Origin: Ideonella livida
GTDB taxonomy: Bacteria > Pseudomonadota > Gammaproteobacteria > Burkholderiales > Burkholderiaceae_C
DNA: 40,799 nucleotides
NCBI RefSeq assembly: GCF_010499455.1
Contig: NZ_JAAGOH010000037.1
Span: 1 to 40,799, forward strand
Direction: 5' to 3'
This document shows positions 12,020 through 14,202 of this stretch, in pieces. The first letter of the stretch is position 1; each line of letters starts with the position of its first letter. The notes beneath the pieces are model-generated. The model was given only the letters and a program-made list of their open reading frames with translations. It searched no databases and was not told where the DNA came from. The translations under genes and the position numbers were made by a program.

Positions 12020-13153
12020 TCAGCCCAGGGGCAAGGTCCGCAGCACGGCCCCGGTGCCCACCAGGGCCATGAGCAGCGGCAGCAGCCAGCGCAGCTCGTC
12101 GAGCCAGGCCCGCGCCAGGGCGGCCCGCGGGCCGGGAGGCATCAGCCGGCCCAGCACCGTGCGCGCCAGCAGCACCGCCACCAGGTAGGCATAGCCCAGC
12201 GAGAGGATCTGGGCCACCGGTGTGTCCTGGGACACCGCCCCGGGAAAGCTCGACTCGAAGGTGAAGCCCAGGGCGGTGAGCGCCAGCAGGGAGGAGAAGA
12301 TCAGGCTGCCCTCGTCCTTGGGCGCCAGGCCCGGCACCCACAGCACAAAGACCGACACGCTGAGCACGGCCACCAGCGGCACGAAGACACGCAGCAGGTA
12401 GCTGGCCGCATCGCGTTCCAGCGCCAGCGTGGCGGTCAGCCGTGCATGGGGCGCGGCATTCCAGCCGCTGGCCTGCCCATGCGCAAAGCGCAGGCCCGTC
12501 GGACGCCACTGCGCCAGCGACAGCCGCGGCGCCACGCCCGACGCCCGCCGGTCCAGCCCGGTGCTGACCAGCACCACCGCCTGGCGCGCGTGGCGGGGCA
12601 GCGCGAAGTCCAGGGCCAGGGCCTGGCGGTCGAAGGGAAAGGCCGCCAGGTCCAGGGTCACGCGCAGGCGGCTCTCGTAGCGCTCGACCAGCTCCACCAC
12701 GCCATCGGCATGGGTGGACACGGCCACCGTGCGCGAGGTGGGCGGCTCGAGCTGGTTCTCCAGCACCAGGCCGGGCGTCCAGATGCCGGCCAGGTAGCGC
12801 TGCGCGGCCTCGTCCTGCCGGTCCAGCCGGTGGCGCCCTTCGCGCAGCGGGTCAAACGCCAGGCGGGGGTCGCGCCAGCGCTGCCGGGTCTCCAGTTGCA
12901 GGCGGAGCGTGCCGGCCACTTCGTGGAGCTCGGTCAGGTTGAGGATCTGCACCGCCAAACCCACCTGCACCGGCAGGGCCACCCCTGGAGGCAGCGCGGT
13001 GGCAGGGGCCGGCGCGGTGGCCGTGCGGAGGTCCTGCGCCGCGCGGGCGGTGGGGGCCGCCAAGACCCACAGCGCCCAGAGCAGGCCCCACAGCAGCCCG
13101 CACCACGCCCGGCAAACGCCGGCGCGGGCCGGGCCCAAACGGGAAGCCCTCAT
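12020..13153 (-). CDS. Pentameric ligand-gated ion channel homologue (prokaryotic Cys-loop/Pro-loop receptor)
   Basis: 377 residues with the layout of GLIC/ELIC-type channels. A signal peptide covers about 1-39 (ending TARAAQ). The extracellular beta-sandwich (about 55-250) includes the [11 protein letters not shown] loop at 124-134 and the Pro-loop [12 protein letters not shown] at 172-183; the vertebrate disulfide cysteines are absent, as in bacterial members. Four membrane segments follow: M1 251-274, pore-lining M2 281-299 ([19 protein letters not shown]), M3 313-335, M4 356-371. Length and segment order are complete, so it is likely functional. Its ATG overlaps the TGA of the upstream dCache gene (ATGA), indicating translational coupling. 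Ion selectivity and ligand cannot be read from sequence. Confidence 0.9.
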
Positions 13154-14202
13154 GCCTGCGCCCCGGCCTCGTCACCGGCGCGGGGCGGCCGCAGGGCCAG
13201 GCCGCACAGCGCCCGCAGCGCCGCCCAGGCCAGCAGGCCGCCGCACAGGGCGGCGAGCGCCAGTTCCACGCGGCTGCGCTGGCGCAGCGTGTCGTGGGCC
13301 GCGCGGTCGCGCAGCGCCAGCACGCTGCCGATCTGCCGGCCGCTGTAGTCCACCAGTGGCTGCACCGCCAAGGCATGCCGGCGACCGTCGAGCTGGAGCT
13401 CCGTCTGCTCATGCCCGAGCCCCGGCGGCAGGCGCTCCTCACGCAGCAGGCGGCCGAACAGGGCGGTGTCGGTGGCCGCGGCCAGGGTCAGGTCACCGAC
13501 CGTGACCTGGAGGCCGCCAGGGGCGGGGTCCAGACCGCTGAGCGCCCGGCTGACGACCACGGCCACCTCGGCATTGGTGGTGGTGCGGATGTCTTCCAGC
13601 AGGGGCAGCAGGTCCACACCCACCTCGGCGGTGCCGACGACCTGCCCCGCCTCACGCAGCACGGCCACGCCACGCACCCCGACGATGCCGCTCACCCCCA
13701 CCTCCACCCCGGACTGGGGCTGGCCGCTGCGGCGTGCGGCCAGCACCATGGGGCGCGCGGCGGCGATGTCATCCACGGGGGCGTCCTGCCGGTGCATGCG
13801 CAGCAGGTAACGCAGGTCAGCGGTGTGGAAGCCCAAGACGCTGACCCCCGCCTGGGTGCTCAGGTAGTCGTAGGTGGCTTGGGTCTGGGCCTGCAGGGCG
13901 GCGCGGTCACCACGCCGCAGCAGGGGAGCCAGCGCCGGCTGCCGGGCGAGCGCCTCGGCCTGCCCCAGGGCAAACCGGGCCGCGCGCTCCATCGACACGC
14001 TCAGGGCCCGGTCGATGGCCGCCATCTCGGTGCGGCGATCCTGCGCCTGCAGCGCGTCCAGGGCGCGGTGGGCCAGCAGCAGCATCAGCCCCAGGGTCAG
14101 GGCCATGACGGCCCCGGCGGCGCGCAGGGCGTGCCGGGTGATCCGGCGGGAGTCGACGGGGGTCGGCGCGATGACGGCGTGTTCAGGGGTGGAGGCGTTC
14201 AT
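13150..14202 (-). CDS. Membrane-anchored dCache sensor protein without output domain
   Basis: 350 residues from ATG 14202 (a TTG at 14286 would add 28 residues with no clear benefit). Membrane segment at about 28-46, a periplasmic region of about 260 residues, and a second membrane segment near 311-335 with only a short cytoplasmic tail. The periplasmic part resembles the dCache_3 type of double Cache domain: SVLGFHTADLRYLLRMHRQD (120-140), then VDDI, ARPMV, SGVEVGVSGIVGVRGVAVL (164-182) and VGTAEVGVDLLPLL (188-201). Such domains normally feed histidine kinases or chemoreceptors; no kinase, HAMP or methyl-accepting region is present here. The stop overlaps the start of the ion channel gene, so the two products probably work together. 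Confidence 0.85.
   Translation of the reverse strand: MNASTPEHAVIAPTPVDSRRITRHALRAAGAVMALTLGLMLLLAHRALDALQAQDRRTEMAAIDRALSVSMERAARFALGQAEALARQPALAPLLRRGDRAALQAQTQATYDYLSTQAGVSVLGFHTADLRYLLRMHRQDAPVDDIAAARPMVLAARRSGQPQSGVEVGVSGIVGVRGVAVLREAGQVVGTAEVGVDLLPLLEDIRTTTNAEVAVVVSRALSGLDPAPGGLQVTVGDLTLAAATDTALFGRLLREERLPPGLGHEQTELQLDGRRHALAVQPLVDYSGRQIGSVLALRDRAAHDTLRQRSRVELALAALCGGLLAWAALRALCGLALRPPRAGDEAGAQA

Follow-up and report, generated by a model that had tools for sequence, protein, structure and literature searches.

Is the Cache protein encoded directly before a pentameric ligand-gated ion channel (pLGIC) in Ideonella livida a working part of that channel, or only its genetic neighbour? To our knowledge, the role of bacterial pLGICs for their hosts is largely open; a constant partner of a known sensor type would be a direct handle on that role, via the ligand of the Cache. 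The window, that is, the whole stretch of 40,799 nucleotides of contig NZ_JAAGOH010000037.1 that was analysed, contains the following elements, and the coordinates, strand and ATGA overlap first claimed for the pair in the initial annotation were confirmed when re-read from the sequence:

13150..14202, minus strand: dCache_3 protein of 350 aa (PF14827 match, hydropathy)
12020..13153, minus strand: pLGIC subunit of 377 aa (PF02931, GLIC alignment)
13150..13153, minus strand: ATGA stop/start overlap of the two genes (sequence)
14331..14708, minus strand: cytochrome c gene, outside the module, on the upstream side of the presumed insertion (PF00034)
10830..11975, minus strand: tgt, downstream flank of the presumed insertion, outside the module (translation)

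The Cache gene lies 5' of the channel gene and its stop codon shares the ATGA with the channel start, an overlap from which translational coupling of the two genes is expected. No promoter- or terminator-like sites were detected in the window between positions 11900 and 14900.

The upstream protein matched the dCache_3 family (PF14827) with 72.8 bits against a cut-off of 25.7, as did, above cut-off, the 8 other paired Caches, of 26, that were scanned with Pfam. Hydropathy placed hydrophobic stretches at residues 25-43 and 311-329 and left 21 residues beyond the second, such that the layout reads as a helix, a periplasmic double Cache, a helix and a 21-residue cytoplasmic tail. In a Pfam scan at E up to 1, dCache_3 was found alone, without HAMP, MCP, kinase, GGDEF or other output domain, and the earlier description of an output-less dCache on two membrane helices thus stands. 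Among the 27 paired Caches considered below, the tail past the second hydrophobic stretch measures 8-21 residues in 6, which leaves no cytoplasmic domain able to carry an output there, and 51-66 residues in 21, where it is perhaps the remnant of a HAMP domain. In L109 and L114, the Cache start as chosen omits the first helix.

Residues R135, D145, R150, G172, G190, E193, G195, T244, P282 and G292 are invariant in all 27 paired Caches. Five longer Cache homologues were found in 2 of the 14 genomes searched with the Cache: two dCache_3-HAMP-MCP chemoreceptors (L104 and L105), one protein with PAS and HisKA, one with PAS and GAF, and one with dCache_3 alone. The paired Caches have an outer module related to that of the two chemoreceptors, including a FLR.H.PE.FGDDLS..R region shared with L104; unlike them, none of 9 paired Caches examined by Pfam scan has an MCP domain, and HAMP appears at most as one sub-threshold match, in L024. 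Identity of the outer module to that of L104 was 37-43% in the 5 rows compared of pair type B (see below), 34-36% in four of the five rows of type A, and 26% in the fifth, the window Cache, which of these ten rows least resembles the chemoreceptor and also has the longest end branch (2.11) in the 18-row tree. To look for faster change of the membrane-proximal module relative to chemoreceptors, outer modules were matched at 33-45% identity; the proximal modules then averaged 24.3% identity between paired Caches (200 comparisons), 17.1% between paired and multidomain proteins (23) and 21.7% between multidomain proteins (2 comparisons only). A PDB profile search with the Cache returned weak matches only (best E 0.009), the majority of them to CitA/DcuS-type sensors of histidine kinases, or to constructs derived from these; from the CitA/DcuS matches, which span about 30 residues, a carboxylate would be a tentative candidate ligand. 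Given its invariant residues and the chemoreceptor-like outer module, the paired Cache would fit a sensor that has retained its pocket but given up its output in favour of a membrane neighbour.

The downstream protein scored 59.4 bits against the ligand-binding domain model Neur_chan_LBD (PF02931; cut-off 26), and a PDB profile search aligned its residues 53-336, pore region included, with a best E of 8e-17; its identification as a pLGIC in the initial annotation is borne out by both. The 60 PDB matches listed, of 299, all carry the name Glr4197 or proton-gated ion channel (GLIC); one of them is a GLIC chimera with a GABA-A receptor, and among these 60 GLIC is the closest solved relative. NCBIfam pLGIC models aligned below their cut-offs (80.3 versus 280.2 and 71.6 versus 500). 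By its sequence, the window channel appears to carry the Pro-loop FPFD and a four-helix pore, against which count the lack of a Pfam match to the transmembrane model PF02932 at E up to 1 and an M2 that falls below the hydropathy threshold. We assign the protein to the pLGICs and predict that it would conduct ions as a pentamer when a ligand binds. The window channel belongs by sequence to the same family as GLIC and other prokaryotic pLGICs. GLIC has been studied as a proton-gated channel with no known partner; in the branch described here, by contrast, every one of the 27 channels has a Cache gene before it.

Within the 27 paired channels, FPF of the Pro-loop is invariant and is followed by D in 26, and a tryptophan of putative loop C, W231, is invariant as well. 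The putative pore position -1' of M2, which we assigned by presumed nicotinic receptor numbering and placed without a structure, is D or E in 24/27, and predicts that the paired channels are mostly cation-selective, with exceptions possible. At this pore mouth, L112 and L115 have Q and L116 has P, and the selectivity of these three channels may differ from that of the other paired ones. The type-B paired channel of L117 (4070-5437) has about 100 extra N-terminal residues, if its overlapping start is correct.

The pairing is far from private to this strain. After removal of duplicates (L016=L042, L018=L040, L019=L013, L022=L041 and L009=L021), Cache and pLGIC genes were found paired at 27 loci in 25 genomes, together with 24 unpaired pLGIC loci; this recurrence sets the arrangement above chance, bears out the conserved adjacency of the two families proposed at the outset, and rules out an adjacency restricted to the strain. 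Near-copies among the 27 (L017/L041/L042, L049/L050 and L113/L114) make the independent cases fewer. L025, an 85-residue match in a Bacteroidales MAG, had no channel or Cache profile match and was dropped. The 27 loci comprise 23 of Rhizobiales, the window and three MAGs; Rhizobiales here is our name for the order of genome G729, whose relation to the window is listed as the same phylum, and 14 of the 23 pairs lie in G729's family or in genomes named Rhizobium. The MAG pairs are labelled Burkholderiales, Magnetococcales and Verrucomicrobia, labels that may reflect mis-binning. At every one of the 27 loci the Cache gene is directly upstream of the channel gene on the same strand, and of the stop/start junctions 20 overlap by 4 nt, 2 read TGATG and 3 leave 1-3 nt between the genes, so that overlap or a gap of at most 3 nt holds in 25/27; the two others, L017 and L111, fit none of these patterns, as no in-frame channel start lies 3 nt or less from the Cache stop, and were retained in every count.

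Close to the window the channel is rare: it was found in 1/60 relatives and 1/399 family genomes, in both cases the window's own. A search of 398 genomes of the phylum with PF02931 gave 7 channels in 6 genomes, 3 of them (the window's included) with a Cache homologue directly upstream; this family search does not lean towards the paired branch, in contrast to the searches with alignment A1, which do. A three-channel profile found 10 loci in named species genomes, 9 with near-complete channels, and Cache was upstream in 9/9. Further searches, in sampled and overlapping sets with the query genomes counted in, found the channel in 12/247 genomes of G729's family, 24/288 of its order, 2/289 of its class and 2/250 of the window's order. 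All these genome searches score only a small number of candidates in each genome, and an apparent absence may therefore be a miss. A Cache search in 14 genomes found the protein in 12/12 with a paired channel and in 0/2 with distant channels only, and the paired-Cache profile had no matches in the fetched stretches of the 24 unpaired channel loci; for L011 the contig reaches back no more than 429 nt from the start of the channel. Channel profile scores ran from 323 to 430 bits in the 9 paired loci scored and reached at most 131 in unpaired ones, with no overlap. No relatives were found in viral contigs, nor any plasmid matches for three paired channels, that of the window among them. A fixed third gene in the module was ruled out, since the 669 neighbouring ORFs, once clustered, gave no more than 5/27 loci per cluster among the 14 widest clusters; one example from these reads as a PAS/kinase-type sensor, and several reflect close Rhizobiaceae synteny.

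The paired channels also form a group of their own. When 51 channels were placed in a tree (the second pLGIC gene of L131 was left outside it), the 27 paired ones stood on one side of a single branch with support 98/99, and the label 'paired' required 1 change against a mean of 17.3 after shuffling. The window channel, with its dCache_3 gene upstream on the same strand, falls in this Cache-partnered pLGIC branch, as we define it here. Pairwise distances of channels and Caches were correlated at r 0.96 in a set of 18 pairs and r 0.87 in all 27, and none of 10,000 permutations reached these values in either set. The correlation persisted within the two types into which the pairs divide, with r 0.93 for type A (17 rows) and r 0.96 for type B (10 rows), again with 0/10,000 permutations each. 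Channel and Cache trees of 18 rows showed the same split into types A and B, with finer branching that differs in places, and the mean channel identity between the types was 23% in these rows. The types do not run along species lines: G729's family holds both, and genome G882 of that family has one pair per type, each channel beside its own Cache. This congruence is a sign of co-inheritance and not of contact, since transfer as one unit alone would yield agreeing trees.

Signs of such a transfer are seen in the window itself. The gene that we take to be tgt (queuine tRNA-ribosyltransferase), named without a family search, occurs in 14/16 genomes of the genus, counting that of the window. In the other 13, no match to Cache or channel was found upstream of tgt, in stretches of about 5.6 kb in most genomes and 1.9 kb in L059; at about 60-115 nt from tgt, the cytochrome gene was present in 3/13 of these loci, where its distance is about 60-100 nt, and the presumed queA in 2/13. 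From the lack of the pair in 13/13 loci and the flank lying close to tgt in some, it looks as though the pair was inserted as a unit between tgt and the cytochrome gene. The nearest channels to that of the window, at 50-52% identity, are four from two other families of G729's order, and their Caches have tails of 8-11 residues; the identity and the short tails suggest that the window pair was acquired from a group like those two families. In the window, what we presume to be queA (14440-14892) diverges from its relatives right past MALYRHA and stays open into the stretch that precedes the cytochrome gene; it seems to have lost or shifted its normal terminus.

The arrangement has relatives in the literature and among better-known proteins. 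Alpha2delta subunits, the dCache-bearing auxiliary subunits of animal voltage-gated calcium channels, have a VWA domain as a part; the window Cache showed dCache_3 alone in the Pfam scan, with neither dCache_1 nor VWA. Alpha2delta (PMC9901441) combines dCache_1 with another channel superfamily, so that the likeness is one of analogy and not of membership, a parallel that is drawn in PMC549065 too. In the latter paper, Tasneem et al. (December 2004) described, as a single case, a predicted Rhodopseudomonas operon in which a Cache protein has its own gene beside that of a pLGIC, as well as MCP-N/Cache fusions to pLGICs; they proposed that Cache and pLGIC act in cooperation and that the bacterial pLGICs serve as chemotactic receptors. 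To call the signalling system 'undescribed', as the initial annotation did, was therefore too strong. The pair reported here is like the Rhodopseudomonas operon in its separate Cache gene, in the predicted operon with a pLGIC and in the chemosensing proposed there, and unlike that one-genome case in its 27 pairs on one branch, its overlap, its co-inheritance and its output-less Cache; Rhodopseudomonas is absent from the 10 loci in named species genomes. New with respect to that case are the obligate branch, the co-inheritance and the tail-less Cache, the constant partner having been anticipated there, some twenty years earlier, on the basis of a single genome. In the open-access literature, PMC549065 alone was found relevant for Cache with pLGIC and no later paper on the pair was found; the terms 'cache' and 'operon' do not occur in PMC4795631. 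Among other prokaryotic pLGICs, ELIC is activated by GABA and primary amines, and DeCLIC has an extra N-terminal domain. Like DeCLIC, the MCP-N/Cache fusions of PMC549065 and the PBP-I fusions of L132 and L134, the pair adds to the pore a periplasmic module thought to modulate it; unlike these fused domains, that module is encoded separately and is a membrane protein in its own right.

Cache and channel of this branch look like obligate partners and probably work as one receptor. A conserved functional pairing of the two is strongly supported, and we infer physical gating; the likeliest role of the Cache is that of a ligand-sensing auxiliary subunit that would contact and gate the pLGIC. With a probability of about 0.6, we read the pair as an obligate two-part receptor, a complex in which the Cache would sense a periplasmic ligand and tune, in one direction or the other, a predicted mostly cation-selective channel. 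The reading draws on the pairing at all loci of one branch, the tight junctions, the co-inheritance and the output-less Cache, features in which the two-part system first proposed from the window proved conserved. The outer Cache module, still chemoreceptor-like, would bind a small ligand in the periplasm; the resulting change could pass via the inner module and the two helices and, the Cache having little or no cytoplasmic output, would move sideways, in the membrane or the periplasm, to the pLGIC, which would then open, close or be tuned. If the Cache ligand gates the channel, the pair makes up a ligand-gated channel in two parts and exemplifies how the sensor of a chemoreceptor can be rewired to ion flux; such pairs, if the reading is true, would be compact models for auxiliary-subunit control of a family that includes the animal nicotinic and GABA-A receptors. 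Somewhat short of even odds, in our estimate, is the bolder proposal that a chemoreceptor-type dCache swapped its MCP output for a channel and became a separate obligate sensor subunit, turning chemosensing directly into ion flux as a convergent bacterial counterpart of alpha2delta.

Several points count against the receptor reading. Co-inheritance and overlap also fit mere co-regulation or joint transfer; the channel keeps its own ligand-binding fold and may bind a ligand of its own; the window Cache has, among the ten compared, the outer module least like that of a chemoreceptor, and the longest end branch of the 18-row tree; and the longer cytoplasmic tail is kept in most Caches. Moreover, Cache domains are dimeric, with no obvious match to the five-fold symmetry of the channel. 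The Cache could instead be a membrane chaperone for assembly or trafficking of the pentamer, the ligand being sensed by the extracellular domain of the channel alone. A Cache gene that comes first and is tightly coupled, a long cytoplasmic tail that is dispensable, and the invariant residues kept in the extracellular domain of the channel would agree with this, but a chemoreceptor-like outer module with R135, D145 and R150 invariant in 27/27 exceeds the apparent need of a scaffold, and we consider a chaperone unlikely. Less probable again is that the Cache captures and enriches a ligand, which then gates the channel at the channel's own orthosteric site. Tasneem et al. (PMC549065) proposed such capture for PBP and Cache domains that are either fused to the channel or encoded in its operon, and among other pLGICs some are fused to PBP-I (L132, L134) and some have solute-binding genes nearby (L012, L010); however, the two-helix anchor and the tie to one channel branch suggest more than delivery.

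That the two genes are co-regulated or co-transferred neighbours without direct functional coupling seems to us the least probable explanation. The pair has apparently moved as a unit, which is enough alone for congruent trees, but pairing, order and overlap persist across two deeply separated types, no other neighbour shows comparable constancy among the widest clusters, and an output-less Cache would be of little use alone. We thus favour the two-part receptor.

Other associations were noted around the unpaired pLGICs, for whose 24 loci 34 neighbouring ORFs were listed and 22 scanned with Pfam. In L132 (3853-6345) and L134 (3828-6284) the channel has a fused N-terminal PBP-I domain (Peripla_BP_6); one further unpaired pLGIC is followed after 27 nt by a binding protein of the phosphonate type, and another has an SBP_bac_3 gene about 1.4 kb off on the opposite strand. 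Two different pLGIC genes stand in tandem in L131 (2530-4793), possibly encoding a heteromeric channel. In L126 (2544-7550), L140, L141 and L142, genes for a glutamate decarboxylase, a pLGIC, a Cache-type protein and an MFS-like transporter are clustered; this pLGIC occurs in 4/20 genomes of G1436's family (of G729's order), with the cluster around it in 4/4, and the channel of L126 had one plasmid match, 24% identical. The decarboxylase matched TIGR01788 with 414 bits (cut-off 380), and the Cache-type protein matched PF22673 above and dCache_1 below cut-off, with a weak RcsD-like tail. The cluster is a second, separate association of Cache and pLGIC, in which a GABA-making enzyme adjoins a relative of the GABA receptors.
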